DNA of 64,000 bases from Ensifer adhaerens (GTDB lineage Bacteria; Pseudomonadota; Alphaproteobacteria; Rhizobiales; Rhizobiaceae): contig NZ_CP015882.1 in NCBI RefSeq assembly GCF_000697965.2, positions 1,339,001 to 1,403,000 on the forward strand, written 5' to 3'. The notes under the pieces were generated by a model. The model saw only the letters and a program-made list of their open reading frames with translations. It did no database searches and was not told the DNA's origin. A program made the translations under genes and the position numbers. This document shows positions 12,355 through 33,433 of this stretch, in pieces; positions within the stretch are counted from its first letter, which is position 1, and each line of letters opens with the position of its first letter.

Positions 12355-12384
12355 TGATCCAACCGCGCCCACTTCTCGTAATCC
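12355..12384 (+). promoter_or_regulatory. Sigma-E (RpoE/ChrR-type) promoter of the DUF3833 operon
   Basis: TGATCC, 18 bases, then TAATCC, 38 bases before the first gene at 12422. Same hexamer and spacing as the promoter upstream of rpoE (19058), with CG directly before TA in both. Confidence 0.75.
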
Positions 12385-12421
12385 AGGCTGACGAAAAACA
12401 ACGGGAGCGAACGAACGAGCC

Positions 12422-12811
12422 ATGTTCCGAACCGCAATAGCGATCGCAGCTGTGTGCGCAGCCGTACCGTCAGAGGCCGCTGCGGAGCAATACAGAGCAA
12501 ACGAGATCAAGGGAGAGATCGTCGGCAGGCGCATCTTCCTTGAAGCTCCATTGGGTGGGGAATTCCCGCTAAACTATCGAAGAAGTGGCAGTGTCGACGG
12601 TGACGGGGAAGCTTTGGGCCTCGGCCGGTTCGTCAAACCCAAAGACACCGGCACTTGGTGGATACAGTCTGACCGTCTCTGCCAGCAGTTTCGCACCTGG
12701 TACGACGGTCGCCCGATGTGTTTCGAGCTCTACCGGGTCGAACAGAAAAAGCTGAAGTGGATCCGGAACGACGGAAAGACCGGTATCGCCCGAATAGGTC
12801 CCGAGCTTTGA
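12422..12811 (+). CDS. Small secreted protein, DUF995-like
   Basis: 129 residues with a signal peptide (cleavage probably after SEAAA). The C-terminal half (GTWWIQSDRLCQQFRTWYDGRPMCFELYRVEQKKLKWI) resembles a two-Cys beta-rich domain seen in many rhizobial exported proteins and fused to adenylate cyclases; function unknown. It is the first gene behind the sigma-E-type promoter at 12355, so it may be part of the singlet-oxygen response. Confidence 0.7.
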   Translation: MFRTAIAIAAVCAAVPSEAAAEQYRANEIKGEIVGRRIFLEAPLGGEFPLNYRRSGSVDGDGEALGLGRFVKPKDTGTWWIQSDRLCQQFRTWYDGRPMCFELYRVEQKKLKWIRNDGKTGIARIGPEL

Positions 12812-12877
12812 TGTGGCAGCGAAAGGAGGCCGCGTATTGAAGCTTATGCCGCGCAATCGATTTGACGGAGGAAATGC

Positions 12878-13381
12878 ATGCGCATCTTCAGCGTTTTTCT
12901 TACGGTCCTCGCCATGAACCTTGCATTGGTTGCGCCAGCGGCCGCCGGGTCCTTTTCGCTTGAAAGCTTCTTTACAGGCAGGTCGAGCGCCGAGGGAAGC
13001 TTTCAAAGCATCACCGGGGTTAAAAGGACATTCGAAGTCCAGTTGGTCGGAAAATGGGACGGCCGCACCCTGACGCTCAGGGAAGATTTCAGGTTCGATG
13101 ACGGCAGTCGAGATCGCAAGACGTGGCGGTTCATAAAGGATGGACCCGGCAGATACAGGGGTACGCGCGAGGACGTGATTGGAGAGACGCAGGTGCGGAT
13201 TAAAGATAATGTCGCGCGCTTCAGCTATCTGGTCTTCCTCGACTCAAAAAACCGCAAGAACAAAGTTCGCTTTCACGACACCATGACATTGAACAATGAC
13301 GGTCGTGTCCTCAATACCGCCTATGTGACGAAATTCGGATTGCCGGTTGCCTGGACGCGTGTCGAATTCAGGAGACAGTGA
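12878..13381 (+). CDS. DUF3833 family secreted protein
   Basis: 167 residues with a signal peptide ending near AAAG. The DUF3833 pattern is clear (FFTGRSSAEGSFQSITG, LREDFRFDDGSRDRKTWRF, GRYRGTREDVIGE). The family has a lipocalin-like beta barrel and is found in ChrR/RpoE singlet-oxygen regulons next to the SDR and symporter-like genes, as here. It lies four bases before the MFS gene. Confidence 0.85.
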   Translation: MRIFSVFLTVLAMNLALVAPAAAGSFSLESFFTGRSSAEGSFQSITGVKRTFEVQLVGKWDGRTLTLREDFRFDDGSRDRKTWRFIKDGPGRYRGTREDVIGETQVRIKDNVARFSYLVFLDSKNRKNKVRFHDTMTLNNDGRVLNTAYVTKFGLPVAWTRVEFRRQ

Positions 13382-13384
13382 CTG

Positions 13385-14713
13385 ATGTGGAAAGTGTCTA
13401 GCAGACGAGCATCCAGGTCACACCCTTCGACACTCATCCTCTATGCGCTTCCAGCGTTCCCATTGGCGGCGCTTGCGCTGCCGCTTTTCGTCATCGTTCC
13501 GACGTTTTACTCCGAAGTCATGGGACTACCGGTCGCGGCCGTCGGCGGTGCACTTTTTGCCATTCGTCTTCTTGATGCAGCGAGTGATCCGATATTCGGC
13601 TGGCTTGCCGACCGGTGGAATGGCGTTGGCGGTCGCCGGCGTGGCTTTTTTCTTGCGTCAATTCCGCTAACCGCGGTCGCCGCGTTCATGCTTTTTTGGC
13701 CGCCTCAAACAATCGGGCTCGGTTATCTGCTTATATGGGGTGGCCTTTTGTCACTTGGCTTTACCTGGTCCTCTCTGCCCTACACCGCCTGGGGGGCAGA
13801 ACTTTCAACCGACTATGCCGAGCGAACACGCGTTGCAGCTTTCCGCGAAGGCGCGACGCTTATCGGGACTTTATCGGCCATCAGCCTCCCCTTCGCTTTT
13901 GGGACGGCTGGGGCAAATAACGCCGATGGGCTGAAGGCGGTAGCCGTTCTTGTCGCGGTCTTGCTTCCGCTCACAGGGCTTATGGCTTTCGTTTTCGTCC
14001 CCGAACCCGTCAATCGGTCGACGCGGGAGTTTGGCCTGATGCAAAGCCTGGTTTTCATGTCGAAGAACCGGCCGTTCCTGCGTCTCATCGCCGCTTTTCT
14101 TTTGAATGGATTTGCAAACGCAATCCCAGCTACTTTGTTTCTTTACTTTGTCTCAGGGCGTCTGGGAGCTGCGGAATGGCGCGGCCCGTTTCTCCTACTC
14201 TATTTCGCATGCGCAGTTCTTGGCGTACCGCTCGCAGTAAAGGCCGCAAGGCGCTGGAGCAAGCACAAGGCCTGGAGCGGCGCTATGCTGGTGACGTGCT
14301 CGATCTTTGCGGCATCAGGATTTCTCGGCGACGGAGACCTGGTCGCCTTTGGTGCGATATGCGTGTGCACCGGTCTTCTGCTCGCCTTCGACCTTGTTTT
14401 GCCTCCATCCATGCAGGCAGACGTAATCGACAACGACACAGCAGTCTCAGGCTCTCAGCGTTCCGGCATGTATTTCGCGGCGTGGGCACTTGCCACGAAG
14501 CTCTCTCTGGCGACAGCAGTCGGGGTGACGTTTCCCATGCTCAGTCTGATTGGCTTCGACCCGGCTCAAGATCGTTCGTCGCCCGACGCTCTCAAGGGTC
14601 TTTCGTTGCTTTACGCCTGGGCACCAATCGTCCCGAAGCTCGCAGCAATCGGGCTCATGTGGGGCTTTCCGATCGATCGTGTGGCCCAACGAGAGCTTAT
14701 TGGTCGGACTTGA
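13385..14713 (+). CDS. GPH-type MFS transporter (MelB-like) of the sigma-E locus
   Basis: 442-residue inner-membrane protein with about 12 membrane segments. The MelB/GPH signature is seen in DAASDPIFGWLADRW near residue 65 and in WSSLPYTAWGAELS. In Rhodobacter sphaeroides the same kind of gene lies in the RpoE regulon beside an SDR and a DUF3833 gene. The substrate is unknown, possibly a lipid or lipid headgroup rather than a sugar. Four bases separate it from DUF3833. Confidence 0.85.
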   Translation: MWKVSSRRASRSHPSTLILYALPAFPLAALALPLFVIVPTFYSEVMGLPVAAVGGALFAIRLLDAASDPIFGWLADRWNGVGGRRRGFFLASIPLTAVAAFMLFWPPQTIGLGYLLIWGGLLSLGFTWSSLPYTAWGAELSTDYAERTRVAAFREGATLIGTLSAISLPFAFGTAGANNADGLKAVAVLVAVLLPLTGLMAFVFVPEPVNRSTREFGLMQSLVFMSKNRPFLRLIAAFLLNGFANAIPATLFLYFVSGRLGAAEWRGPFLLLYFACAVLGVPLAVKAARRWSKHKAWSGAMLVTCSIFAASGFLGDGDLVAFGAICVCTGLLLAFDLVLPPSMQADVIDNDTAVSGSQRSGMYFAAWALATKLSLATAVGVTFPMLSLIGFDPAQDRSSPDALKGLSLLYAWAPIVPKLAAIGLMWGFPIDRVAQRELIGRT

Positions 14714-14784
14714 CGGTATTGCGCTCGTCTACGGCTGCCAGGTTGATGACACGTTTTCCCCATCGCCCACTGAGGTAGGTTTCC

Positions 14785-15591
14785 ATGACTATCGGTCGCG
14801 ATTTAATCAACAATCACGCCTTCCACGAGACGGATCGTCGAAAGGTGGCGTGGGTTACCGGCGCAAGCTCCGGCATCGGGAAATCGCTTGCACTCCGTTT
14901 GGCACTTGACGGCTGGACCGTCGCCGTAAGCGCGCGCAACTCGGTGGAGCTCGATACTCTCGCACGATCACTGGAGAAAAAGATCCATTCTTTTCCCCTC
15001 GATGTGACCGACCGCGAAGCGGCAGAAAACACCGTACGCGACATTGAAATGCGCCTGGGTCCGATTTCCCTTGCGGTCTTCGGCGCAGGAACGTACCGGC
15101 GCGATAGCCTGTCGACCTTCGACGCCGCGTCGATCGGAGAGATGGTCGGGCTCAACATCATGGGAACCGTGAACTGTTTGCAGGCGATCATGCCAGCGAT
15201 GACGACGCGCCGGTCGGGACGGATTGCCGTCATGGCATCTGTGGCAGGCTACACCGGTCTTCCTGGTGCCGCGGGCTACGGCGCGACCAAAGCCGCCTTG
15301 ATCAACATGTGCGAAGCCCTTTATCCCGAACTTGAACGGCAAGGCGTTCAGATGACAATTATCAATCCAGGATTTGTCGATACGCCCTTGACGCGTCAGA
15401 ATGACTTTCCAATGCCTTTCCTGATCTCTTCGGAAAGTGCGGCGGAATACATCATGCGCGGGCTTGAGCGGGGGAAGTTCGAGATCGCATTCCCGTGGAG
15501 GATGAAAGTGGTCTTGAAGCTATTGAAGGCGCTTCCTCCAAGCCTGAGGTTCGCCTTGACGCGCCGCATGTTGCGTGAGGAGCAGACCTGA
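14785..15591 (+). CDS. Short-chain dehydrogenase of the sigma-E operon
   Basis: 268-residue NAD(P)-dependent SDR: cofactor motif TGASSGIGKS (residue ~25), catalytic YGATK with a preceding Ser (MASVAGYTG), and a C-terminal amphipathic stretch (MKVVLKLLKALPPSLRF) that could sit on the membrane. The start has GAGGTAGGT upstream. It is the last gene of the 12422-15591 operon and converges with the methyltransferase gene seven bases away. It probably acts on a fatty-acyl or lipid substrate. Confidence 0.88.
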   Translation: MTIGRDLINNHAFHETDRRKVAWVTGASSGIGKSLALRLALDGWTVAVSARNSVELDTLARSLEKKIHSFPLDVTDREAAENTVRDIEMRLGPISLAVFGAGTYRRDSLSTFDAASIGEMVGLNIMGTVNCLQAIMPAMTTRRSGRIAVMASVAGYTGLPGAAGYGATKAALINMCEALYPELERQGVQMTIINPGFVDTPLTRQNDFPMPFLISSESAAEYIMRGLERGKFEIAFPWRMKVVLKLLKALPPSLRFALTRRMLREEQT

Positions 15592-15597
15592 CCTCCG

Positions 15598-16815
15598 TCA
15601 CGTTGGTTCGAGCCGGAACTGGTAGACATCGATGGTCCCGTTGCGAAAGCCGGCGGCGCAGTAGTGAAGGTAGTAGCGCCACAAGCGCTTGAACCGTTCG
15701 TCGAATGCAGCGGATTCAATCTTGTGCCAACTTTTGAGGAAAGCACCTTCCCACAAGAGCAGGGTTTTCTCGTAGTCACGGCCGAAAGAAAATGCATCCC
15801 GCACCCGTAGGCCGGAAGTGACAGCCTCCTGCCTGAAGACTGCCGCAGAAGGCAGCATGCCACCGGGAAATACATAGGTTTGAATGAAATCGGCGTTTTG
15901 CCGATACCGCTCATACCGCCTCTCGTCGATCGTGATGACCTGGATCAGCGCTTGTCCGTCAGGAGCGAGGTTCGTGCGCAGCTTCTCAAAGTAAACCGGC
16001 CAATTCTCCTCTCCCACGGCTTCGAACATCTCTATTGAGACGATCTTGGTGAAACGTCCTTCACAATCCCTATAGTCTTGCAGCCGCACCTGGGCCAACG
16101 GAGACAATCCCTTGTTTGCCAGCCGAGCTCTCGCAAAGTCGGCCTGCTCCTTCGACAAAGTCAGCCCGGTAATGCGACACCCCGTGCGCGAGGCCGCGTA
16201 CTCCATAAACCCGCCCCAGCCGCAACCGATCTCAAGAACATGATCTTGCGGACCGATTCGCAGCTCACTCAGGATCCTGTCGTACTTGGCTTGTTGGGCT
16301 TCACCGAGTGACTGCCCTTGCCGCTCAAAGATGGCGGCAGAGTACGTCATCGTCTCATCGAGCCATGCGCGGTAGAAATCGTTCCCGAGGTCGTAATGGA
16401 ACGCGATATTTCGGCGGCTCCCGGCACGGGAGTTTCGTCTGAACAGATGCCGGAGGTAAGCGAGGCGGCTTATTAGCGGGCGAGAGGCGAGCGCTGGCTT
16501 GAGGGTCTCTTCGTTGGCAAGCGCCAAATCCATAAGCGTTCCCAGGTCTGGCGTCTCCCAGTCGCCATCAAGATAGGATCGAGCAAACCCGAGGCTGCCG
16601 CTTGTGAGCATACGCCAGACCGCTCTTGAGTTCGTAAAGACGATCGCTGCAGTCGGACCGGGGACGTCGCCTTTGACCAAATGCACTGCCCCACAGGGGA
16701 ACTCCGCGCGCAACTGCCCGCGTTTGATACGGGCAAGCCAACCGCATACTATTCTTTGCCACAGCGGGCGGCCCGACGATATTGAAAATGCCGCACCCTG
16801 ATCAAGCTCGCTCAT
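15598..16815 (-). CDS. Cyclopropane-fatty-acyl-phospholipid synthase family methyltransferase
   Basis: 405-residue SAM-dependent methyltransferase of the CFA synthase family, acting on acyl chains of membrane phospholipids. The SAM motif VLEIGCGWGGFMEYAA lies near residue 185, and GMLPSAAVFRQEA toward the C-terminus is typical. The start at 16815 overlaps the DUF1365 stop by four bases. With DUF1365 and a flavin amine-oxidase-like gene it forms the trio that in R. sphaeroides makes methylated furan fatty acids under RpoE control; assignment to that pathway is by gene content. Confidence 0.88.
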   Translation of the reverse strand: MSELDQGAAFSISSGRPLWQRIVCGWLARIKRGQLRAEFPCGAVHLVKGDVPGPTAAIVFTNSRAVWRMLTSGSLGFARSYLDGDWETPDLGTLMDLALANEETLKPALASRPLISRLAYLRHLFRRNSRAGSRRNIAFHYDLGNDFYRAWLDETMTYSAAIFERQGQSLGEAQQAKYDRILSELRIGPQDHVLEIGCGWGGFMEYAASRTGCRITGLTLSKEQADFARARLANKGLSPLAQVRLQDYRDCEGRFTKIVSIEMFEAVGEENWPVYFEKLRTNLAPDGQALIQVITIDERRYERYRQNADFIQTYVFPGGMLPSAAVFRQEAVTSGLRVRDAFSFGRDYEKTLLLWEGAFLKSWHKIESAAFDERFKRLWRYYLHYCAAGFRNGTIDVYQFRLEPT

Positions 16816-17612
16816 GCCAAGGTGTCTTTCTGTTCGAAACGGGAGACAATCGTTGTGGCGACCCGCAGGTCCGCCGGTCGATGACGATGCACGGGCATGC
16901 CCTTTAGCCAGATCTTGAGCGCCTCCCAATGGATCGCACCCATTACTTTTACTGTCATCATGGGGTGTTTCAGGAAGGTTAGAAAAAGCCTCTTATCCGA
17001 GATCTCTTCCCTTTCTCCGGAAAATACAGCCGTGAGAAGTCGCCCGTCACAATCGTTTTCGGTTATGCCGACGAACACGGTTTCCCCCGGCGGCCTGAGG
17101 TTGAACTCATAGCGGCAATCCATGGGTACAAACGGAGAAACGTAAAGTTCTTTGACGCACGACTGCCGGATCGCTCCGCCCTCGTCGTCGCTCACCGGAA
17201 TGACATAGGTATGGCGTTCGTGGAATGTGTTGCAGACCTCATAGAGAACGGCCCGGACTTGGCCATCGCTTGCCTCACAGTAAAAGACCGTCAAAGGGTT
17301 GAAAACGTAGCCGAGTATGCGGGGATAACATAGCACACGGATACGCATCTGCTTCACGTCCACCCCGGCCTCGGAAAGCTGGCGTTCGACCCAACTGCGT
17401 AGCGCGCCTACTTCACCATTCCCGTGATCGCTGTCGCGAAAACTGAACAGAGCAAAGCGATTATGGCCGAACAGGCGCAACTTGCTGTCCAGCCAAGCCA
17501 ACTCGTCCAGATCGAGGAGCAGCGAAAAGACCCTGTAGGAAAGCCTATGCCGGCGGGGTCTAAACCGAACGTGGCACACCTGGCCGCTGTAAAGAGCCGA
17601 CCTCGACATCAT
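16812..17612 (-). CDS. DUF1365 family protein
   Basis: 266 residues matching DUF1365 (ALYSGQVCHVRFRPRRHRL, RILGYVFNPLTVFYC, CNTFHERHTYVI, KELYVSPFVPMDCRYEF). DUF1365 is regularly encoded between a flavin oxidoreductase and a CFA-synthase-like enzyme, and is proposed to take part in lipid modification such as furan fatty acid synthesis. ATGA overlaps join it to both neighbours, so the three proteins are translated in fixed ratio. The tail carries many basic residues, which would suit membrane contact. Confidence 0.87.
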   Translation of the reverse strand: MMSRSALYSGQVCHVRFRPRRHRLSYRVFSLLLDLDELAWLDSKLRLFGHNRFALFSFRDSDHGNGEVGALRSWVERQLSEAGVDVKQMRIRVLCYPRILGYVFNPLTVFYCEASDGQVRAVLYEVCNTFHERHTYVIPVSDDEGGAIRQSCVKELYVSPFVPMDCRYEFNLRPPGETVFVGITENDCDGRLLTAVFSGEREEISDKRLFLTFLKHPMMTVKVMGAIHWEALKIWLKGMPVHRHRPADLRVATTIVSRFEQKDTLA

Positions 17613-18967
17613 TGAGCCGCCGCGTAACCGATCTCGCAGGGGAGCCTGCCAGAATCGTCGCGGACCGTCCATGGACGCCGCTCGCCGGAGATGGCCTCGG
17701 CAACCGCAAGCCCGGACTGCAGTCCGTCTTCGTGAAATCCGCTGCCGAAGTAGGCCCCGCAAAACCAGACACCGCCGCGTCCTTGGAGATCCCAAAGCTC
17801 CTTTTGAGACGCCAACGCTCGCTGATCAAACAGGGGATGGTCATAATCGAATGTCGCGATTATCCGCTCACTGGCTATCTTTTGATGCGGGTTCAGCGTC
17901 ACAAAAAGCGGCGTCGCCGGATCGATCCCTTGCAATCGGTTCATCCAGTAGGTCACACAAAGCTGGCGCTCACCACAATCATCCGACGCGCCAATGTAGT
18001 TCCAGCTCGACCACACGTTTCGCCGCCTGGGCATCAATGAGGTATCTGAGTGCAGAACCGCCTTATTGCTTGTGTAGCTGATCGCGGACAACAGCTCTCT
18101 TTCACGTGCGTCAGGCTCGGCAAGCATCGCCAGCGCTAGATCGGCGTGAGTTGCGATGACCACATCCGTGAAAGTGTCACGATTGCCATCACGATCTGTT
18201 ATGACCACCGTCCCCACCTCGCGGCGGATCTCCCGGACTGCCCTTCTTGTTCGAAGCTCACCGCAATAGTCCGACATCAGCCTGCTGACATATTCTCGGC
18301 TTCCGCCGGTTACGGTTCGCCAACGAGGTCTGTCCGTCAATGCAAGCAAACCATGACTGTCGCAGAATCGAATGAAGGCATGCAGCGGATAATCACGCAT
18401 GCGTTTGGTCGTTGTGGACCAGATCGCAGCGCCCATGGGAAGGAGATGATCGGTAACAAAGGCATTGCTGTAGCCATTCTCGTCGAGATACTCCCCCAGC
18501 GTCTTGCTAGCGAGATTTAGCCGATTAAGAGCTTTGGGAGCTTCTCGATAGAAGCGCAAAATGTCTGACAATATTCTCCAGAAGCGCGGACGAAGTGCGT
18601 TTAACGGTTGACCGAACAAGCCTGTCAATCCAGAGCCCGAGTATTCGAATGCCCCGCCATCCAATGAAGCGGAGAACGACATATTGGAAGCTTGGGTCGG
18701 GACGTCAAGGTGGTCAAACAGCGCTACAAGGTTGGGATAGTTGCGATCGTTGTACACGATGAACCCGGTATCGACCGGAACCGGTCCAACAGCCGTCGGC
18801 GCGAGGACGGTGTTGGCATGACCGCCAGGTTTGTCGCCGGCTTCGTAAAGAACGACCTCTAAGCTTTTACCGAGTAGCCAAGCCGCGGACATTCCCGAGA
18901 TACCGGCGCCAATCACAGCGACACGCCGTTGCCCGAATTCACCCCTCATACCCCGATCAAACCGCAT
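17609..18967 (-). CDS. FAD-dependent amine-oxidase-like oxidoreductase
   Basis: 452-residue flavoprotein: dinucleotide motif VAVIGAGISGMSAAWLL (residue ~15), VVLYEAGDKPGGHANT, and a C-terminal FAD contact (GVWFCGAYFGSGFHEDGL). It has the fold of fatty-acid desaturating/isomerising flavoproteins and heads the lipid operon with DUF1365 and the methyltransferase. The start at 18967 has GAGGGG seven bases upstream. It is divergent from rpoE, and a sigma-E-like promoter (CAATCC-N18-TAGTGC, 19001-19030) lies just upstream. Confidence 0.88.
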   Translation of the reverse strand: MRFDRGMRGEFGQRRVAVIGAGISGMSAAWLLGKSLEVVLYEAGDKPGGHANTVLAPTAVGPVPVDTGFIVYNDRNYPNLVALFDHLDVPTQASNMSFSASLDGGAFEYSGSGLTGLFGQPLNALRPRFWRILSDILRFYREAPKALNRLNLASKTLGEYLDENGYSNAFVTDHLLPMGAAIWSTTTKRMRDYPLHAFIRFCDSHGLLALTDRPRWRTVTGGSREYVSRLMSDYCGELRTRRAVREIRREVGTVVITDRDGNRDTFTDVVIATHADLALAMLAEPDARERELLSAISYTSNKAVLHSDTSLMPRRRNVWSSWNYIGASDDCGERQLCVTYWMNRLQGIDPATPLFVTLNPHQKIASERIIATFDYDHPLFDQRALASQKELWDLQGRGGVWFCGAYFGSGFHEDGLQSGLAVAEAISGERRPWTVRDDSGRLPCEIGYAAAQ

Positions 18968-19000: not shown

Positions 19001-19030
19001 GCACTACGAAAAAATCTCCCGATCGGATTG
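19001..19030 (-). promoter_or_regulatory. Weaker sigma-E-like promoter of the flavoprotein operon
   Basis: On the minus strand CAATCC, 16 bases, then CGTAGT: the same geometry as the TGATCC-N16-CGTA sites, but with only four of six bases in the upstream hexamer. The predicted transcript starts about 27 bases before the start codon. Confidence 0.45.
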
Positions 19031-19057
19031 ATCACCTTGAAAAATTTTGGACAACAA

Positions 19058-19087
19058 TGATCCAAGAAGCAGAAGGCATCGTAATCG
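19058..19087 (+). promoter_or_regulatory. Sigma-E promoter of rpoE-chrR
   Basis: TGATCC, 18 bases, TAATCG. TGATC is the known upstream element of ECF11 (RpoE-ChrR) promoters. Its position inside the longest rpoE ORF argues for the downstream start at 19201 and for autoregulation. Confidence 0.7.
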
Positions 19088-19200: not shown

Positions 19201-19770
19201 ATGGTAGAGCCGGGCGGGGAACTGACTAAAGATGAAGCCTGCTCTCTGCTCGAGGCAGTCGGTCGCAAGCGAGATATTGAATCTTTCGAGGCGCTGTTTC
19301 GCTATTACGCTCCGCGCGTAAAGGCCTATATGGCGCGCCTTACGCGTGATCCAAACATCGCCGAGGAATTGATGCAGGAAGTGATGATCACCGTTTGGAA
19401 CAAGGCAGGCCAGTTCGAAGCGACACGCGGTAACGCAGGTACGTGGATCTTCACGATTGCCCGCAACCTTCGTATTGACGCCTACCGCAAGAACCGGAGG
19501 CCGGATTTCGACGTCAATGACCCCGCATTTGTGGCAGACGATGCCAAAAGCGCGGAGAACGAGCTGGCGGAACGCCAGGATGCGACCCGGTTAAAGGACG
19601 CCATGAAGGACTTGCCTCAGGAACAAATCCAATTGCTGACGCTGTCGTTCTTCGACGATTGCTCTCACAGTGCGATTGCCACCAAGCTGAACCTGCCGCT
19701 CGGAACGGTGAAGTCGAGAATCCGACTTGCCTTTGCGAGGCTTCGGGCTGCGCTGGAGGACGGAAAATGA
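19201..19770 (+). CDS. rpoE: ECF RNA polymerase sigma factor RpoE (ChrR-controlled type)
   Basis: 189-residue ECF sigma factor. Region 2: FEALFRYYAPRVKAYMARLTRDPNIAEELMQEVMITVW; region 4: PQEQIQLLTLSFFDDCSHSAIATKLNLPLGTVKSRIRLA. Family and neighbour ChrR place it in ECF11, which answers singlet oxygen. The start at 19201 is preferred because the protein then begins like its homologues and the promoter at 19058 lies upstream; an ATG at 19057 would add 48 unconserved residues. The stop overlaps the chrR start (ATGA). Confidence 0.92.
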   Translation: MVEPGGELTKDEACSLLEAVGRKRDIESFEALFRYYAPRVKAYMARLTRDPNIAEELMQEVMITVWNKAGQFEATRGNAGTWIFTIARNLRIDAYRKNRRPDFDVNDPAFVADDAKSAENELAERQDATRLKDAMKDLPQEQIQLLTLSFFDDCSHSAIATKLNLPLGTVKSRIRLAFARLRAALEDGK

Positions 19771-20438
19771 ATATCCGTCATCATGTGAGCGACGAATTGC
19801 TGGTGGGATATGCATCCGGCACGCTTGAAGAGGGTTGGCGGCTTGCTGTTGCAACGCATCTTGCGTTGTGCCCCAACTGCCGGACAAGACTGACTTTGAT
19901 GGAGAATACGGCCGGAGAGTTGCTCGAGAGCATGGAGCCAGTGCCAATAGAAATCTCGTCTTTCGATCGGTTGAAAGAGCGCCTACGAACCGCGGAATCT
20001 CACCCAAGCGTCTCGCCGAAGCAACCTGCGAGAGTAATGCAAGTCGTTTCGCCGCCAACCATCCCGGAACCGTTGCGATCCTATCTTGGAGGAGATCTGG
20101 CGGAGCTGAAATGGAAGTCTCTGGGACGTGGCGCCTATCACATTCCGATCAAGCTGGCCGATCGGTCGACAACGGCCCGTCTGCTTCGCATACCGGCCGG
20201 AAAACCCGTGCCGGAACACAGCCATGGAGGGCGCGAATTGACGCTAGTGCTCAGCGGAAGCTTCAATGACGGAGAACTCTTGTTCGCCCGCGGAGATATA
20301 GAGGAGGCAGACCCGAGCGTTGAACACCAGCCCCTGGCAACGCCTGAGCAAGATTGTATCTGTCTGGCGGTAACCGACGCGCCGCTCAGGTTCCGGAGCT
20401 GGTTTATGCGTTTGCTTCAACCTGTCCTTCGGATCTGA
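19767..20438 (+). CDS. chrR: Zinc anti-sigma factor ChrR (cupin type)
   Basis: 223-residue anti-sigma factor that binds RpoE until singlet oxygen releases it. The N-terminal zinc site H6, H31, C35, C38 (HLALCPNC) has exactly the spacing of R. sphaeroides ChrR. The C-terminal cupin holds H151, H153, E157 and H187, again the same spacing as the second metal site required for the singlet-oxygen response. All key residues are intact, so the switch should work. It is translationally coupled to rpoE. Confidence 0.93.
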   Translation: MNIRHHVSDELLVGYASGTLEEGWRLAVATHLALCPNCRTRLTLMENTAGELLESMEPVPIEISSFDRLKERLRTAESHPSVSPKQPARVMQVVSPPTIPEPLRSYLGGDLAELKWKSLGRGAYHIPIKLADRSTTARLLRIPAGKPVPEHSHGGRELTLVLSGSFNDGELLFARGDIEEADPSVEHQPLATPEQDCICLAVTDAPLRFRSWFMRLLQPVLRI

Positions 20439-20451: not shown

Positions 20452-20856
20452 ATGACCTACGCGATATCCTACGTGGCGACAGCGATCGTCTTTCTCGGCT
20501 TGGACTTTTTGTGGCTGACCGGGTCGTCGAAATTCTATCGCAGCCGAATTGGAGAGCTTCTGCTCGAGCATCCAAATCTCATTGCCGCCGCTGCATTTTA
20601 CGTCATTTATGTAACCGGTGTTTCATATTTTGCCGTCATACCTGCGCTCAGCTCCGGACGTTGGACGACAGCACTGGTATCGGGAGCTCTGCTCGGCCTT
20701 GTCGCTTTCGGCACCTACGACATGACAAATCTGGCAACGATCAAGGGGTGGTCGTTGGAGGTAAGCTTGGTGGACATGGTGTGGGGTGTCTTCATCACCA
20801 CGGCGTCCGCTCTCGCCGGATATTTTTCCGTTTCGGCCGTACAAAAGCTGATTTGA
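20452..20856 (+). CDS. DUF2177 family membrane protein
   Basis: 134 residues with four hydrophobic segments (about 5-20, 40-60, 70-88, 105-128) and the family pattern FLGLDFLWLTG and YDMTNLATIKGW. Function is unknown. Thirteen bases behind chrR, it is probably in the same transcript and part of the sigma-E regulon. It converges with the ABC transporter ATPase gene. Confidence 0.85.
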   Translation: MTYAISYVATAIVFLGLDFLWLTGSSKFYRSRIGELLLEHPNLIAAAAFYVIYVTGVSYFAVIPALSSGRWTTALVSGALLGLVAFGTYDMTNLATIKGWSLEVSLVDMVWGVFITTASALAGYFSVSAVQKLI

Positions 20857-26290: not shown

Positions 26291-26320
26291 TAATCCAACG
26301 AGCCGTTCCCCTCGTAAACG
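26291..26320 (+). promoter_or_regulatory. Sigma-E-like promoter before the photolyase relic and SDR
   Basis: TAATCC, 16 bases, CGTAAA: same geometry as the TGATCC-N16-CGTA sites with one mismatch upstream. The remaining sequence of 26042-26344 showed nothing recognisable. Confidence 0.4.
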
Positions 26321-26344: not shown

Positions 26345-26522
26345 CCCCATGAAATGCTGTCGCAGACTGATCTTTATTTTTGGCGACCAAGAGCTTTCGG
26401 CAAACCGAAGACTTCAACACCCCTACGCCACCTGACGGCGCATGACGCAGGACCGGAGAAATGAGTATCGGCAAAGCGCCAGCGCTTTCCTGCAACGTCT
26501 GGACGAGGGTCTTGGTGTTTAG
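26345..26522 (+). pseudogene. C-terminal relic of a cryptochrome/photolyase-related gene (CryB type)
   Basis: In one frame the sequence reads ELSANRRLQHPYAT, then an in-frame TGA at 26433, then RRMTQDRRNEYRQSASAFL and a stop at 26520. This resembles the C-terminal end of CryB/PhrB-like photolyases (SANPRL..YATW RRM.. pattern), with TGA where a Trp codon (TGG) is expected. Upstream the match is broken by frame changes and the rest of the gene is missing. CryB-like genes are classic members of this sigma-E regulon and often precede an SDR like the one that follows. Identification is from memory of the family. Confidence 0.5.
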
Positions 26523-26536: not shown

Positions 26537-27232
26537 ATGCCGCTTACGTCACTTGCTAAAGGATACCGCGCGGTTGTTTTGGGAGCCAGCGGCGGCATTG
26601 GATCCGCAATCGCCGGCGAACTCCGGTCCGATCCCAATTGCCTGCAGCTTGTAACGCTCTCGCGTAGGGACAATTCCTTCGATATCACAGACGAAGAGAG
26701 TGTCGCAGCAGTAGCAGCGGAGACTGTAGATGGGCTGCATCTTGTTTTTTGTGCGACCGGCGGACTTGTTGTCGACGGCGTGGGTCCTGAAAAATCACTC
26801 AAGCAAGTCGACCCAGATGTGATGATGCGGCAATTCGCGCTGAACGCGATTGGACCGGCACTCGTTCTCAAACACTTCGCGCCGAAGCTCGTCCGCAGCG
26901 ACCGCGGCATAGTCGCCTTCCTGTCTGCCCGGGTCGGGTCGATCGGAGACAATCGCCTGGGGGGCTGGATTTCCTACCGAGCGTCGAAGGCTGCGCTCAA
27001 CCAGATCGTCCGCACAGCTTCCGTAGAACTGAGCCGCACCCATCCGCGCGCGGTGGTCGTCGCACTCCACCCAGGAACGGTCGCGACAAAAATGACGGCA
27101 GACTACTCCACTCACCACCGCCGGTTGGATCCCAGTGAGAGCGCATGTGCAATGCTCCGGGTTATTGATCGGTTGACGCCGGAAAATACCGGAGAGTTCT
27201 TCGACTATGATGGCCTGCCCGTTGAGTGGTGA
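26537..27232 (+). CDS. C-factor-like short-chain dehydrogenase
   Basis: 231-residue SDR of the C-factor/CsgA-like group. Cofactor motif VVLGASGGIGSAIA; catalytic Tyr/Lys in ISYRASKAAL; ends in GEFFDYDGLPVEW, typical of the group. AGGAGG lies ten bases before the ATG. It lies 14 bases behind the photolyase relic, an order common in sigma-E/ChrR regulons. The substrate is not known. Confidence 0.88.
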   Translation: MPLTSLAKGYRAVVLGASGGIGSAIAGELRSDPNCLQLVTLSRRDNSFDITDEESVAAVAAETVDGLHLVFCATGGLVVDGVGPEKSLKQVDPDVMMRQFALNAIGPALVLKHFAPKLVRSDRGIVAFLSARVGSIGDNRLGGWISYRASKAALNQIVRTASVELSRTHPRAVVVALHPGTVATKMTADYSTHHRRLDPSESACAMLRVIDRLTPENTGEFFDYDGLPVEW

Positions 27233-27405: not shown

Positions 27406-27963
27406 CTACGCTTTCGGAAGCAGCACTTTGTCGATCACATGAATGACACCGTTTGACTGCTTGACGTCGGCGATCGTTACAGTGGCAATGCCACCCGTTT
27501 CGTCAGTGAGTGTGATCTTGTCGCCATCCATCTTTGCCGAAAGCGTGCAACCGCCCACGGTCTTGACTGAATGGTTCCCTCCGTCATCGGCAATCATCTT
27601 GCCGACTGCATCGGAAAGCGCATTGGCAGCCACGACATGACAAGTCAGCACTTTGGCGAGCTTTTCTTTGTTCTCGGGTTTCAGGAGTGTGTCGACAGTG
27701 CCGGCAGGCAAGGCATCGAAAGCTGCGTTCGTCGGCGCAAACACGGTGAACGGGCCATCACCGGACAGCGTATCCACGAGACCGGCGGCTTTCACTGCTG
27801 CAACGAGTGTCGTGTGGTCCTTCGAATTTGCTGCGTTTTCCACGATGTTTTTGCTTTCGGACATGGCCGCTCCACCGACCATGGGGTTGTCGGCATTAGC
27901 AGCGAAGGCTACGAGAGCGAAAATAGACGCGATCGCGGCGGTACGTCTTAGGGACCGTTTCAT
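27406..27963 (-). CDS. Secreted fasciclin-domain protein
   Basis: 185 residues: signal peptide (RTAAIASIFALVAFAANA) then one fasciclin (beta-Ig-H3) domain with DGPFTVFAPTNAAFDALP and a C-terminal GVIHVIDKVLLPK. Fasciclin proteins are among the strongest RpoE/singlet-oxygen targets in R. sphaeroides. The start at 27963 has GGAGG about nine bases upstream. A TGATCC-N18-TATTGA promoter lies 76 bases before the start. Confidence 0.9.
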   Translation of the reverse strand: MKRSLRRTAAIASIFALVAFAANADNPMVGGAAMSESKNIVENAANSKDHTTLVAAVKAAGLVDTLSGDGPFTVFAPTNAAFDALPAGTVDTLLKPENKEKLAKVLTCHVVAANALSDAVGKMIADDGGNHSVKTVGGCTLSAKMDGDKITLTDETGGIATVTIADVKQSNGVIHVIDKVLLPKA

Positions 27964-28038: not shown

Positions 28039-28068
28039 TCAATACGCCGTCTTTACCAAACTGGATCA
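28039..28068 (-). promoter_or_regulatory. Sigma-E promoter of the fasciclin gene
   Basis: Minus strand TGATCC, 18 bases, TATTGA, with CG directly before TA as in the rpoE promoter. Confidence 0.7.
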
Positions 28069-28190: not shown

Positions 28191-28220
28191 TGATCCAATC
28201 AGCAAGGTCATACGTAAAGC
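28191..28220 (+). promoter_or_regulatory. Sigma-E promoter of tspO
   Basis: TGATCC, 18 bases, TAAAGC, again with CG before TA. It lies 128 bases before the TspO start codon. Confidence 0.65.
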
Positions 28221-28347: not shown

Positions 28348-28845
28348 ATGTTGCAACGAACTTCCACTGACAAAAGAAGATGGGTCCGTGCGCTGGCATT
28401 TGCGATTGTACCGGTCGCCGCGACATCCATGCTAGGACAATTGGCGACCTATCCAAACCTCGAACGCTGGTATTCAGCGCTGGAAAAGCCGAGTTTTAAT
28501 CCTGCGAACTGGGTGTTTGCTCCGGTCTGGACAACGCTTTACATCCTCATGGCTTACGCTGCCTGGCGGCTCTTGATCCTCCCTGCCAGGACGCCGGGCA
28601 GGCTGACGGCACTGGCGCTATTTTACGTTCAGCTCGCCCTCAATGCGTTGTGGTCCTGGATGTTCTTCGCCATGCAAAGTCCGGTCGCCGGCCTGGTGAA
28701 CATCATCGTGCAAATCGGGTTTATCCTCGCAACGATCGCGCAGGCCTGGCGCCTCGACAAGAAAGCGGCACTTTGCCTCTTGCCGCTGGCAGCGTGGGTC
28801 TCCTTTGCGGCCGTACTGAATTTCGCAATCTGGTTCCTCAATTGA
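28348..28845 (+). CDS. tspO: TspO/MBR family tryptophan-rich sensory protein
   Basis: 165 residues with five membrane spans and family motifs WYSALEKPSFNPANWVFAPVW, ALNALWSWMFF and AAVLNFAIWFLN. TspO binds porphyrins and in Rhodobacter tunes photosynthesis gene expression and oxidative stress. The start has GGGGG about seven bases upstream. The sigma-E-type promoter upstream suggests induction by singlet oxygen, where binding or export of photosensitising tetrapyrroles would make sense. Confidence 0.9.
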   Translation: MLQRTSTDKRRWVRALAFAIVPVAATSMLGQLATYPNLERWYSALEKPSFNPANWVFAPVWTTLYILMAYAAWRLLILPARTPGRLTALALFYVQLALNALWSWMFFAMQSPVAGLVNIIVQIGFILATIAQAWRLDKKAALCLLPLAAWVSFAAVLNFAIWFLN

Positions 28846-28937: not shown

Positions 28938-28945
28938 CATCTTTG
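28938..28945. repeat. 8-bp target site duplication, left copy
   Basis: CATCTTTG, repeated at 32067-32074. Eight bases is the usual duplication for IS1595-family elements. Confidence 0.85.
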
Positions 28946-28970
28946 CGGCATTAGGTAGCAAAAGCCACCA
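28946..28970. repeat. Left terminal inverted repeat
   Basis: Pairs with 32042-32066; 23 of 25 positions agree. Confidence 0.85.
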
Positions 28971-29032
28971 AATGCGGCTTATGTATTTGACTCGTATGAG
29001 AAATTCATTGTTCGGCGAGTGCGTCGCGGGTT

Positions 29033-29563
29033 TTAAGATAGCACCTGTAAGAGAGCCGATGGTGAACTGAGGAAGCCGCCAACTACCAGGCCAACGAATC
29101 CTAACGCCAACGCTCCGACGATGCCGTGGTTTTCCCAGCCGATGTAAGCACCTACAGCGGTTGCTGTCGCGATGATCGAAACCGTCCATAGGATTTTGAT
29201 CAGCGAAACCGCACGACGAATGGCTGTTGGTTTGTCTTCGGTCATGCGGACATCAACTTTCTCAAACGCCTGTGTCTTCGATGTAAGTACGGAAAACCCA
29301 TTCCACCAGAGGTTCAGGTTCATCATCCGTTGCAGCGGATCATTTCCGTTCTCGCCAACCGCTTTTACGGCCTCGGCAATTAACCATTTGAGCCTTTCTC
29401 CGATCGACTCCCGCGGAAAGTCCAGGTAAGAACCTGGGTCATGTTCAGGATGATACGCATACAGCTCTGATCTCCCCGCGGCCTTCGGCCGCCGATCCGC
29501 TGTGCCTGCCGTCGACCTCTGGAGCCTGAACATGACGCTCATCGCCATCGCTACCGCCGCCAT
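29033..29563 (-). CDS. Hypothetical membrane protein carried in the IS1595 element
   Basis: 176 residues, unknown function. The first ~120 are hydrophilic (HPEHDPGSYLDFPRESIGERLKWLIAEAVKAVGENGNDP), and the last ~55 contain two membrane helices (ILWTVSIIATATAVGAYIG and GALALGFVGLVVGGFLS). The start is uncertain among several ATG codons. It lies between the left end of the element and the transposase on the opposite strand, so it is passenger cargo. Confidence 0.6.
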   Translation of the reverse strand: MAAVAMAMSVMFRLQRSTAGTADRRPKAAGRSELYAYHPEHDPGSYLDFPRESIGERLKWLIAEAVKAVGENGNDPLQRMMNLNLWWNGFSVLTSKTQAFEKVDVRMTEDKPTAIRRAVSLIKILWTVSIIATATAVGAYIGWENHGIVGALALGFVGLVVGGFLSSPSALLQVLS

Positions 29564-29661
29564 TGCCCACCGCAGCTACGCTTCGGTGTTGGCCGTCAGT
29601 GCCATGGGCGGGGGCTTGGAAATACGCCCGACCTTACTCCGGATCGCGGAGGGGTTGAGCC

Positions 29662-30687
29662 ATGGCGAACCCCGACGACACGCCCAAGGGCCAGCATTTC
29701 CTGCTGTCGCCAGAGTGCCGAACGCTGACGGTGCTCGATCTCGCCAAGATGCGGGATACGACCGCCTACAACTGGTTTAAGCGTCTGCGCTGGCACGAGA
29801 CGGAGGGCGAGCCTTATTGCCCTAAGTGCGGAACGCTGCGCTGCCACACGATGAGCCGCGACCGCTTCAAATGCACTGAGAAGACCTGCAAGGCCGTGTT
29901 CAGCGTCACCTCTGGCACGGTGTTTCATGCACGCAAGCTGAGCTTCAAGAAGATGCTCATCGCCATCTGGTTTTCGGCGAACTCGGTGAAGGGCAAGGCG
30001 GCGCTCCAGCTCTCGCGCGAGATCGGCGTCCAATACAAGACGGCCTGGGCGCTCCTCATGAAGCTGCGCGAGGCCATCGCATGGCGCAGGGAGGAGATGG
30101 TGCTCGATGGCGAGGTCGAGATTGACGGTAAGTACGCTGGCGGCCACATCCGTCCTGAGAATAAGGCAGAGGATCGCATCGACCGCCGCCTCAGGAAATA
30201 CCAGAACATGAAGCGTCTGTGCGCTCTTGCGATCCGCCAACGCGGACTGGGAGGCCAGACGTTTACCCGGATCATCCGAGACGAAGACAGCAACGCAGCC
30301 TGGGCTGCCGTCCGTGATCACGTGTCGCGGGATGCAACGGTCTTCGCGGACGAGCACGGCAGCTATAACGACCTGGCTGGCCTCAACGAGCTGCAACGCG
30401 TCAACCACTCAAAGGCCTATCAGACCGACGACGGAACAAACACCAACCAGGTCGAGAGCTTCTTCTCGCGGGTCCAACGAGCCTATGTCGGCATCCACCA
30501 TCGGTTTTCGTTGAAATACTTCGACTGGTACGTGGCCGAGCTCGCATGGCGCGAGGATTGCCGACAGGTGAGCAATCGCAATCATACGTTCCAGGTGCTG
30601 GGCAAGGCACTGTCTCGCCCGACGTCACGCTATCTGTGTGGGTACTGGCAGGGCAACAAACCGCCGGACCTTATCTGGGAAGGCTAA
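29662..30687 (+). CDS. IS1595 family (ISXO2-like) transposase
   Basis: 341-residue transposase: N-terminal zinc ribbon (CPKCGTLRCHTMSRDRFKCTEKTCKAVFSVTSGT), then a DDE-type catalytic core with EVEIDGKYAGGHI, FADEHGSYNDL and N-x-VESFFSRVQRAYVGIHH. Full length and uninterrupted, so probably active. The stop overlaps the tail of the passenger relic, which is read on the other strand. Confidence 0.93.
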   Translation: MANPDDTPKGQHFLLSPECRTLTVLDLAKMRDTTAYNWFKRLRWHETEGEPYCPKCGTLRCHTMSRDRFKCTEKTCKAVFSVTSGTVFHARKLSFKKMLIAIWFSANSVKGKAALQLSREIGVQYKTAWALLMKLREAIAWRREEMVLDGEVEIDGKYAGGHIRPENKAEDRIDRRLRKYQNMKRLCALAIRQRGLGGQTFTRIIRDEDSNAAWAAVRDHVSRDATVFADEHGSYNDLAGLNELQRVNHSKAYQTDDGTNTNQVESFFSRVQRAYVGIHHRFSLKYFDWYVAELAWREDCRQVSNRNHTFQVLGKALSRPTSRYLCGYWQGNKPPDLIWEG

Positions 30688-30853
30688 GCGGCGACCTCCC
30701 ACAGAACCTTACGACCGTCGAACTGGCCGGATTGCCGAACGCGTCCTGCAGTCGTCAGTTGGGTCAGGACCGCCGACAGGCGGTGTGCGATGTCTGAATG
30801 GCCGCAACCTTGGCTGCGCAGTCGGTCACCGAAATCGGTTCTCCTGCTTCGCA
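30684..30853 (-). pseudogene. Truncated copy of the element's passenger gene
   Basis: Nearly identical to 31527-31728, including the peptide EAGEPISVTDCAAK, but with an internal deletion of roughly 35 bases and cut off at about 30853, where unrelated AT-rich sequence begins. The reading frame is lost. Confidence 0.7.
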
Positions 30854-31055
30854 GCGCCGGCCCGCCGAATACGTAGCGCCATACCGACCCGGACTTCTAT
30901 TTCTCCCGGTATAACGGTTCCCCATCACTAGAAACCGAACACAAGAAAGAACGAAAACCTCCCGACGAAAAAACACATGAACGCCATCGTTGAAATAGCA
31001 AAGATTGTAAAAAGAAATATAAACTGAAAGAAATCAAGATAATTTGCTAGCGGCG

Positions 31056-31313
31056 TCATTTGATTTTTATCGAGTCAAATTCAGCATAAAGTCTATAATA
31101 CATAAACGAAACAAATATATTAAATCCACACGAAATGTATGCATTGTAGTTCCTGTACATAACTTTTGATTTCGTAAATTCACTCAAAATTTCTCGATCA
31201 TATGTTACATATATATATGAGAACGCAATTGTCGCGACGAGGATAAACAATACTATTGATAGCCCCCACAGAACCAAAGACTTCTCTTTGCTAGACCATG
31301 AAGTCGTCGGCAT
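31056..31313 (-). CDS. Small AT-rich membrane-protein ORF inside the element
   Basis: 85 codons encoding two hydrophobic helices (LVLWGLSIVLFILVATIAFSYIY and a second near the C-terminus, FNIFVSFMYYRLYAEF). The region 30880-31480 is far more AT-rich than the rest of the window, so it comes from another genome. No family was recognised; it may be a real cargo gene or a fragment. Confidence 0.4.
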   Translation of the reverse strand: MPTTSWSSKEKSLVLWGLSIVLFILVATIAFSYIYVTYDREILSEFTKSKVMYRNYNAYISCGFNIFVSFMYYRLYAEFDSIKIK

Positions 31314-31493
31314 TTGGATTCCCCGATCTCATTGAGAGTCGCGCATAATTATAAATCGCCTGAATGCAACACGTGTACATTGGGCGGACGTTGCAAGTAG
31401 AGCCTCTAATTTAGTGCAACAACAATATGCAACCTAGTGTTATTTTGTGGATGCAGTGCACGCGGCCGCTCGAAGCATGCAGATGCACTTCCC

Positions 31494-31507
31494 CGGCATT
31501 AGGTAGC
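31494..31507. repeat. Internal end-like repeat of the element
   Basis: CGGCATTAGGTAGC, identical to the outermost 14 bases of the left end, joined directly to the last ~20 bases of a transposase gene. With the right end it delimits a 573-bp mini-element holding only the passenger gene. Confidence 0.7.
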
Positions 31508-31526
31508 CGGACCTGATCTGGGAAGG

Positions 31527-31988
31527 CTAAGCGGCGACCTCCCACAGAACCTTACGACCGTCGAACTGGCCGGACTGCCGAACGCGTCCCGTAGTCGTCA
31601 GTTGGGTCAGGACCGCCGACAGGCGGTGGGCGATGTCCGAGAGGTTCTCTGGCTCGCTCGGGATTCCGAGCTTGGCTGCAAACTTCGCGGCGCAGTCGGT
31701 CACCGAAATCGGTTCTCCTGCTTCGCGGAGGACCTCCAAGACGGCCTGGCGCTTGTTTACGCCGCTCATCGCCGCTTTCACCTCGGACGACGACGACTTG
31801 GCCTTTCGAGAGCGGTTACCCTCTTCAGGTACCGTCAGCGCCGATCCCTGATAGTCGGGCTCGTAGCTCAGGATGACGCGGTCCAGCGCTCTCATCAGTT
31901 CCTGAATGTCTACCCGCTCCCTTTCAAGCTGCTGCAGCCTGTCAGTCAAGGCGGCTCGCTTCTGCTTCAACTCGTACGCTACACTCAT
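31527..31988 (-). CDS. IS1595-element passenger protein, coiled coil plus winged helix
   Basis: About 153 residues. The N-terminal ~45 form a coiled coil (LKQKRAALTDRLQQLERERVDIQELMRALDR). The C-terminal half (KRQAVLEVLREAGEPISVTDCAAKFAAKLG .. LTQLTTTGRVRQSGQFDGRKVLWEV) looks like a winged-helix DNA-binding domain. The start at 31988 has GGAG seven bases upstream. Probably a regulator or accessory protein of the element; a decayed second copy lies at 30684-30853. Confidence 0.65.
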   Translation of the reverse strand: MSVAYELKQKRAALTDRLQQLERERVDIQELMRALDRVILSYEPDYQGSALTVPEEGNRSRKAKSSSSEVKAAMSGVNKRQAVLEVLREAGEPISVTDCAAKFAAKLGIPSEPENLSDIAHRLSAVLTQLTTTGRVRQSGQFDGRKVLWEVAA

Positions 31989-32041
31989 TCGAGGCTCCGT
32001 TTTCACCGGAAACCAGGGTAGTCGGGATGCCATTTCAGGTC

Positions 32042-32066
32042 TGGTGGTTTTTGCTACCTAATGCTG
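32042..32066. repeat. Right terminal inverted repeat
   Basis: Complement of the left end with two differences; followed by the second CATCTTTG (32067-32074). Confidence 0.85.
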
Positions 32067-32329
32067 CATCTTTGGCTAAGATCGGGCGAGCCCGCGTCGC
32101 CCTTGCGTTGCCTCGTCATCGTGAACAGCTAGGCGCTCTGGACGGCGAGCAATTCGATCTTCTTTTCGAGACCTACGCGCTTGCCGCGATGAGGGTCGAC
32201 GAACTTTTGAGGAAACAGTCTCCTGAGCAAGACCTTAGACGGTATCGCGAAATATGCCTGGACATCCAGGAAGACATCACCTTGCTGCTTGGACGTCTGC
32301 AAAGGCAATTCGAATGAATTTGGGGTGCC

Positions 32330-33391
32330 TTAGCCGTTATTCTTGCCGGTTCCCTGTAGCCAGCCGGCAAGCTCCCGGCGCACGACGTGTTCGAGCACGG
32401 CCATGCCTTCGGCGCTGTCGTTCAGACAGGGGATGTGGGTGAACTTCTCGCCGCCATTGTGATGGAAGCTTTCGGCCGCCTGCTCGGCAATCTCTTCCAA
32501 CGTTTCCAGACAGTCGGAGACGAAGCCCGGGTTGAGGACGGCAATGCGCTTGACACCGTCCTGCGCAAGTTTTTCGACCGTCTTGTCGGTATAGGGCTGC
32601 AGCCATTCCTCAGGCCCGAAGCGCGACTGGAAGGTGACCTGCAGCTTCTCCTTCGACCAGCCGAGCTTTTCGCGCAAAAGCCGCGCGGTCTTCTGGCACT
32701 GGCAGTAGTAGGGATCGCCCTTGTCGAAATAGCTCTTCGGAATGCCGTGGAAGGAGGTCAGAACCACCTCCGGCACCCAGTCGAGCGTCGCCAGGTGACG
32801 CTCGATCGAGGTTGCCAGAGCGTCGATGTAGACGGGATCGTCGTGGTAGGGCGGAACGGTGCGCAGTGCCGGCTGCCAGCGCATCTTCAGAAGCGCCTCG
32901 AAGGCCTTGTCATTAACGGTGGCGGTGGTGGCGGCGGCATATTGCGGATAGAGCGGGAAGACGAGAATGCGTTCACAGCCGGCCTTCTGCAGTGCGTCCA
33001 TGCGCGAGGCGATCGACGGCTGGCCGTAGCGCATGCCCCAGTCGACGATGACGTTAGGCTGGTCGGCGAAGGACTTCGCCATCAGTTCGGACTGGTTGCG
33101 GGTGTAGGTCCGGAGGTAGCTTTCGTTCAAGTCCTTGTTCCAGATCGTCTCATAGGCCTTGCCGACCTTGCCGGGGCGGGTGTTGAGCACGATGCCGAAC
33201 AGGATCGGGTACCAGAACAGTCGCGACCACTCGATCACCCGGCGGTCGGTCAGAAACTCCTTCAGGTAGCGGCGCATCGAGGTGTAGTCGGTGCCATCAG
33301 GCGTGCCGAGATTGACCAGGAGAACTCCGATGTTGCCGCGTTTAATAGTGGGGTGGCCGGCAGTTTTTTCGAGCATCACATCCTTCTTCAT
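32330..33391 (-). CDS. hemH: Ferrochelatase
   Basis: 353-residue enzyme inserting iron into protoporphyrin IX, the last step of heme synthesis, at the membrane surface. Family motifs are VLLVNLGTPDG, the catalytic His in LTSFHGIPKSY and CQCQKTARLL. The C-terminal NPGFVSDCLETLEEI is also typical. ATG at 33391 gives the long form; an ATG at 33376 has AAGGA five bases upstream and fits better with the promoter at 33405-33433, which would leave only a few leader bases for the long form. Confidence 0.93.
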   Translation of the reverse strand: MKKDVMLEKTAGHPTIKRGNIGVLLVNLGTPDGTDYTSMRRYLKEFLTDRRVIEWSRLFWYPILFGIVLNTRPGKVGKAYETIWNKDLNESYLRTYTRNQSELMAKSFADQPNVIVDWGMRYGQPSIASRMDALQKAGCERILVFPLYPQYAAATTATVNDKAFEALLKMRWQPALRTVPPYHDDPVYIDALATSIERHLATLDWVPEVVLTSFHGIPKSYFDKGDPYYCQCQKTARLLREKLGWSKEKLQVTFQSRFGPEEWLQPYTDKTVEKLAQDGVKRIAVLNPGFVSDCLETLEEIAEQAAESFHHNGGEKFTHIPCLNDSAEGMAVLEHVVRRELAGWLQGTGKNNG

Positions 33392-33404
33392 TTATCAACT
33401 CAAT

Positions 33405-33433
33405 TGAATACGGATGGAATGCGGGATGGATCA
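33405..33433 (-). promoter_or_regulatory. Sigma-E-like promoter of hemH
   Basis: Minus strand TGATCC, 17 bases, TATTCA with CG before TA; one base shorter than the rpoE site but otherwise like the fasciclin promoter (TATTGA). Confidence 0.6.

Follow-up and report, generated by a model that had tools for sequence, protein, structure and literature searches.

The window analysed here, a stretch of 64,000 nucleotides of Ensifer adhaerens DNA (C3:1339001-1403000, in a genome of 7,267,502 bases and three contigs), contains two operons that face each other and an rpoE-chrR pair. The first operon, on the plus strand (12422..15591), encodes a small secreted-like protein (12422-12811), a DUF3833 protein (12878-13381), an MFS transporter (13385-14713) and an SDR (14785-15591), all identified with Pfam; its Rhodobacter counterparts are RSP1088, RSP1089 and RSP1087, matched by product names (PMC7074977 Table 1) and domain only. 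The second, on the minus strand (15598..18967), encodes a UfaD-like FAD protein (17609-18967), a UfaO-like DUF1365 protein (16812-17609) and a UfaM-like CFA-family methylase (15598-16815), also from Pfam. In its make-up this operon, designated a flavoprotein operon in the preliminary description, looks like the ufaD-ufaO-ufaM furan-fatty-acid set: a CFA-family methylase, a FAD desaturase and a DUF1365 protein, the last of which we take to be UfaO, occur all together in one operon, and a furan product is predicted. The three names were assigned from domains and the published pathway, the set being defined by description rather than by Rhodobacter sequences. According to the portion of PMC7380195 available, UfaD, UfaO and UfaM suffice for furan-fatty-acid synthesis, and excerpts of PMC6852236 describe Rhodobacter mutants without the furan genes as defective in sigma-E activation.

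The rpoE gene (19201..19770, plus strand) likely encodes an ECF sigma factor of 189 amino acids; a longer ORF of 237 amino acids starts inside the promoter. Among solved structures, the best match of RpoE was R. sphaeroides sigma-E (2q1z_A, E 5.2e-36), the next sigma factor reaching 1.1e-16. The overlapping chrR gene (19767..20438, plus strand) encodes a zinc anti-sigma factor with a cupin-like domain, which scored 214.4 bits with TIGR02451 (cut-off 124.5) and matched R. sphaeroides ChrR (2z2s_B) at E 1.3e-48. The retention of all eight metal ligands in ChrR, claimed previously, was confirmed (H6, H31, C35 and C38; H151, H153, E157 and H187). The Rhodobacter spacing also claimed for them held within each ChrR domain, where it is identical, but not across the protein, because the linker is 10 residues longer; the Rhodobacter zinc ligands are placed at 6/31/35/38 and 141/143/147/177 in the part of PMC6852236 available. 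An ECF sigma factor closest to sigma-E, an eight-ligand ChrR and a TGATCC-N16-CGTA sequence before rpoE were thus all found together, and the last of them would fit autoregulation. Next to chrR comes a gene for a DUF2177 membrane protein (20452..20856, plus strand; Pfam). In two genomes this gene stands apart from chrR, at three loci altogether, and there it has an exact site of its own. In the related locus of CTYH.Ch1 (L082), rpoE and tspO are annotated as starting inside promoter sites (15291 and 25802), and the real starts in the window are probably 19201 for rpoE and 28348 for tspO.

Further downstream lie a photolyase relic (26349..26519, plus strand), in which roughly the first 14 and the last 44 codons remain, with the middle missing and one in-frame stop, and the SDR gene of a former photolyase-SDR pair (26537..27232, plus strand), recognised by domain search and by comparison with L082, where an intact photolyase gene is followed by the SDR gene. 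These are followed by a second-copy gene for a fasciclin-domain protein (27406..27963, minus strand; 78% identical to the other copy, on C1), a second-copy tspO (28348..28845, plus strand; 40% identical to the copy on C1) and a second-copy ferrochelatase gene, hemH (32330..33391, minus strand). Between tspO and hemH, a stretch of about 3.1 kb (28946-32066) carries an IS1595-type transposase gene (29662-30687) and is absent from three related loci (L083, L084 and L085); in the comparison with L083, an 8-base overlap at the IS fits a target-site duplication. The genes divergent from hemH (33590-36255) code for a radical-SAM DNA repair protein (TIGR03916) and for a DUF4130/UDG protein; on their strand, a search of 33400-33640 that allowed two mismatches yielded no site.

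Concerning the promoter motif, five TGATCC/CGTA sites had been proposed, and a search of the window for TGATCC-N15-17-CGTA returned exactly these five, at the same positions and on the same strands: four with N16, before the DUF3833 operon (12355..12380, plus), rpoE (19058..19083, plus), the fasciclin gene (28043..28068, minus) and tspO (28191..28216, plus), and one with N15, before hemH (33409..33433, minus). In 100 dinucleotide shuffles of the window, the mean was 0.21 matches and the largest number two. The weaker forms proposed were also present, CAATCC-N16-CGTA before ufaD (19005..19030, minus) and TAATCC-N16-CGTA before the photolyase relic (26291..26316, plus). Genome-wide there were 18 exact matches, five of them within the 21,079 bases of the island (Poisson P ~3e-9). 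The reversed pattern gave five matches in the genome, a weak control since it contains CTAG. CTAG is rare in bacteria.

Chance frequency across the genome had been named beforehand as the result that would speak against a regulon. Outside the island the motif does look like chance, with one possible case. At all five island sites a family-supported gene starts on the same strand 18-132 bp after CGTA, while only one of the 13 other exact sites (L006, at C1:2207774) has a coding-like ORF on the same strand within 300 bp; that site ends 4 bp ahead of an ORF of 94 amino acids, one possible regulon member outside the island. Twelve of the 13 fall within ORFs of 80 amino acids or more, as do four of the five island sites inside some over-long or antisense ORF of at least 100 amino acids, so that ORF position alone does not separate the two groups; the same-strand downstream gene does separate them, because it is present in 5/5 cases against one possible case among 13. 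Coding was supported by Pfam for the ORFs over five of the 13 (L004, L009, L011, L012 and L013); no domain was found in the ORFs tested at L001, L002, L003, L005, L007 and L008, and codon-position base composition suggests coding frames over L002, L003, L007 and L008. The degenerate pattern YRATCC-N16-CGTA gave 30 matches in the genome, seven in the island (six at promoters, the seventh a CGATCC site at 12317, minus strand, with no gene close by) and 23 elsewhere, 22 of them inside ORFs of at least 100 amino acids and one (L006) outside; ORF position is weak evidence here, the island sites too being often inside over-long or antisense ORFs. Hardly any promoter-like site was found beyond the island. 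A one-mismatch scan of the genome gave 356 matches (110 for the reversed control) and was not used to call targets. The CGATCC-N16-CGTATA site at 12292-12317 (minus) is directed away from the DUF3833 operon and towards an alpha/beta-hydrolase gene about 340 bp further on; L083 and L084 share its sequence, and L082, L050 and L078 do not.

The conservation of the sites was followed in 41 ChrR loci (32 from a genome collection of relatives, eight from plasmid records, and the window), many of which are related, so that their sites are not independent. ChrR of the window is 100% identical to that of E. adhaerens NZ_CP121310.1 and 96-99% identical to those of five more E. adhaerens plasmid records. 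The rpoE site was exact in 38 of the 41 loci and had one mismatch in the other three, standing 113-148 bp before the aligned rpoE start. The ufaD site occurred in 40 loci, as C[A/G]ATCC-N16-CGTA in 39 and with TGATCC in the other, at 58-73 bp from the start of the gene, and was not found in the remaining locus, that of R. johnstonii (L088), whose rpoE site itself has an N15 spacer. Among the 16 loci that hold the first gene of the DUF3833 operon, its site was exact in nine and had one mismatch in five. Matches to the ufaM-like gene were found in 37 of the 41 loci; within the stretches L157-L160 none was found. In 40 loci (854,904 bases) the motif gave 67 matches, against 0, 6, 1, 20, 4 and 5 for six control patterns, the 20 belonging to a composition-like pattern, TGATCC-N15-17-GCAT. 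The upstream regions of the chrR, DUF2177, MFS, ufaM and ufaO genes (n=165) contained no exact and two one-mismatch sites. Over 52 exact N16 sites, the spacer carried at most 0.42 bit per position except at its first position (1.03 bit, always a purine); the ends of these sites are invariant by the way they were selected, and only the spacer figures are informative. Nine further stretches, one of which repeats L078, had the rpoE site exact in seven and with one mismatch in two (L157 and L160), and the ufaD site with up to two mismatches in all nine. In R. johnstonii pRL12 (L088 6224-10122), three further exact sites lie beside rpoE-chrR, one of them 58 bp before folE, and tspO and a lipocalin gene are in the same cluster.

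All 26 bases of the TAATCC site are identical in the window and L082, within a stretch that is 80% identical overall. The site stands 61 bp before the intact photolyase gene in L082 and 246 bp before the SDR gene in the window, and the photolyase is best read as a deletion relic whose promoter survives. The idea that this site is noise was rejected, as it is kept before the intact gene. Both weaker sites of the preliminary description are thus backed by conservation.

The upstream scan of second copies covered 300 bp in 16 genomes of the genus, nine of them ChrR-bearing. Of the two copies each of hemH, tspO and the fasciclin gene in the E. adhaerens genome (C1 and island), only the island copies carry the motif. 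Across the genus, the site was exact before 3 of 17 fasciclin copies, 2 of 13 tspO copies tested and 1 of 18 hemH copies, three other hemH copies having one mismatch, and all the exact sites fell in ChrR-bearing genomes. Before the copies off the island there was no exact site (0/17 hemH, 0/11 tspO and 0/14 fasciclin). No island copy of tspO or the fasciclin gene was found in one ChrR-bearing genome (G003), and few genomes of the genus have an island copy of hemH or tspO. Most of the site evidence for these three genes comes from E. adhaerens strains, the hemH site being also present in L083, L084 and L085. The three one-mismatch hemH sites (TGAACC-N16-CGTATA at -74) precede chromosomal genes of ChrR-bearing genomes (L101, L103 and L104; G004, G007 and G013) that are close relatives.

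The island hemH is a full-length family match (TIGR00109, 284.9 bits, cut-off 124.6; PF00762) and 96% identical to the C1 copy. That it is a single housekeeping gene placed here by chance was rejected, a second copy being present on C1. In a DNA tree, the island copies from four E. adhaerens strains group beside the chromosomal hemH of the genome analysed here (G000; support 100/99), and the 500 bp upstream of the island and chromosomal genes have only a 15-base chance match in common. From this grouping and the unrelated upstream regions it follows that a copy of the hemH coding sequence came to stand behind an RpoE-type site, the island gene being a recent copy of the lineage's own hemH. Its divergence from the C1 copy (dN 0.024, dS 0.051) points to a relaxed but constrained gene.

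In the family, hemH was found in 118 of 121 genomes, with two near-full-length copies in four (G000, G046, G080 and G110); G009, from the genus set, likewise carries two copies, and two further weak partial matches in G014 (35% and 28%), not near its ChrR, were left uncounted. ChrR is present in three of the two-hemH genomes (G000, G009 and G110) and was not found in G046 and G080. One hemH lies near ChrR in all three, at gaps of 11.9 (3.1 of it the IS), 5.6 and 6.7 kb. In G110 the island hemH has its own exact N16 site; in G009 no site precedes the gene itself, which comes after ufaO- and ufaM-like genes in the same orientation. None of 200 bootstrap trees united the island copies in a single clade, and at least two changes are forced. 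This recurrence rests on three cases; the G110 rows have long branches, the two G110 copies share a contig at a distance of 27 kb, and the ChrR of G009 is only 33% identical.

A core RpoE-ChrR regulon across species was reportedly described by Dufour et al. in 2008, as cited in PMC6852236. Of the core genes, the ufaDOM-like operon is present in the window, and the photolyase is a relic there and intact in L082. In Rhodobacter sphaeroides, whose RpoE-ChrR (ECF11) provides the closest solved sigma and anti-sigma factors with all eight zinc ligands, the ufa genes also lie beside rpoE, and photolyase, fasciclin, SDR and MFS genes are targets (PMC7074977 Table 1). The RpoE regulon there includes the fasciclin gene, the ufa genes and RSP1087-1091 (PMC7074977), in line with the proposal that the island genes fit known singlet-oxygen targets. 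The arrangement differs: in Rhodobacter ufaM (cfaS) is unlinked and RSP1091-1087 forms one operon, whereas in E. adhaerens the ufaDOM and DUF3833-MFS-SDR operons have a site each. The tspO gene is RpoHII-dependent in Rhodobacter (PMC8307010) but has its own RpoE-type site in the island, and hemH is absent from the Rhodobacter list of 15 RpoE genes (PMC7074977 Table 1). In R. capsulatus, photooxidative stress brings about the induction of tspO and of CbiX, a putative ferrochelatase (PMC7074977).

In Shewanella oneidensis, according to excerpts of PMC4336711 and PMC6664582, RpoE2-ChrR also acts with TGATCC/CGTA promoters and a second ferrochelatase gene, hemH2, is RpoE2-dependent; a photolyase-SDR pair (SO_4169-4170) stands under an RpoE2-type promoter (excerpt of PMC4336711, Table 1). 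We regard hemH2 as the experimental precedent for the island hemH; it lies behind pgpD, unlike the E. adhaerens gene with its own site and its origin as a recent copy of the lineage's gene. For PSPTO_1043 of Pseudomonas syringae, the consensus TGATCC-N16-CGTA was derived from binding-site mapping, and phrB, cfa and flavoprotein homologues belong to the regulon (PMC5507510, in part); hemH, ferrochelatase, TspO and fasciclin are unmentioned in the main text of PMC5507510. The ECF11 RpoE-ChrR kind of regulon is therefore already known, with its consensus in print for P. syringae (PMC5507510) and, in the excerpts cited, Shewanella; the compact plasmid island, the RpoE-type site on tspO and the capture of a spare ferrochelatase are new. 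No title or abstract on this case was found in the literature searched, which left out most subscription papers.

Considering the observed sites and their conservation, the gene identities and the duplication of hemH, the 21-kb stretch is read, with a probability of about 0.88, as an ECF11 RpoE-ChrR regulon for singlet oxygen, compactly arranged on an E. adhaerens plasmid. The earlier reading in these terms gains support from protein identity, promoter conservation in relatives, and the printed consensus and regulon lists. Without stress, ChrR would hold RpoE through its zinc anti-sigma domain; singlet oxygen would lead to the loss of ChrR, as in Rhodobacter, and freed RpoE would bind and direct RNA polymerase to the TGATCC-N15/16-CGTA promoters, inducing rpoE-chrR-DUF2177, the ufaDOM operon, the DUF3833-MFS-SDR operon, the fasciclin gene and the second-copy tspO and hemH. 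The furan-fatty-acid operon may feed back on ChrR turnover as in Rhodobacter, and the island tspO and hemH could lower protoporphyrin IX, the likely photosensitiser in a non-photosynthetic cell.

It could be argued that only the core sites (rpoE, ufaD and the DUF3833 operon) are live, and that the hemH site with its N15 spacer, perhaps with those of tspO and the fasciclin gene, is inactive or due to chance. This is rather unlikely. The N15 form of the hemH site is known only from E. adhaerens, and the rarity of island hemH and tspO in the genus points the same way, but rpoE itself has an N15 spacer in R. johnstonii, the island hemH of G110 has the exact N16 site, and the fasciclin gene is an RpoE target in Rhodobacter (PMC7074977); moreover, the copies off the island lack exact sites, with three one-mismatch sites before hemH.

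Slightly less probable still is that the island is an RpoE-ChrR system whose main signal is not singlet oxygen but, for instance, organic peroxide or superoxide. Shewanella rpoE2 matters for peroxide and paraquat resistance (PMC4336711 and PMC6664582, in part), Caulobacter also answers organic hydroperoxide (PMC6852236, in part), and Stenotrophomonas chrR reportedly answers superoxide; the furan-fatty-acid and photolyase genes nevertheless fit photooxidative damage. That the cluster of motifs is due to chance composition or to common descent, and has no role as promoters, is very improbable: the 13 exact matches elsewhere and the three-fold excess of one-mismatch matches over the reversed control would be in its favour, but it is opposed by the clustering probability given above and by the fact that, across dozens of loci, the ends and their spacing are fixed and the spacer sequence is free.

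The singlet-oxygen regulon remains the preferred reading, and a broader proposal, to which we would give slightly less than an even chance, may be added to it. The island would be a photooxidative-stress regulon that is portable and almost complete in itself, and that has taken in extra copies of genes for porphyrin handling on several occasions. Among rhizobia it would have gained a second ferrochelatase at least twice, probably three times, in parallel to hemH2 of Shewanella, and TspO would have moved from indirect (RpoHII) to direct RpoE control, so that the regulon removes protoporphyrin IX as the source of singlet oxygen and also repairs the damage. A spare hemH joining rpoE-chrR in separate lineages predicts protoporphyrin IX as the endogenous photosensitiser there, acted on directly by the response, and in this compact regulon of a non-photosynthetic soil bacterium the targets are addressable from one deletion.

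On C1 of the E. adhaerens genome, the other fasciclin gene (L188 5956-7882; G000:C1, ~86-88 kb) adjoins the gene for another ECF sigma factor, 28-30% identical to RpoE, so that this genome may link a fasciclin gene with an ECF sigma factor at two places.
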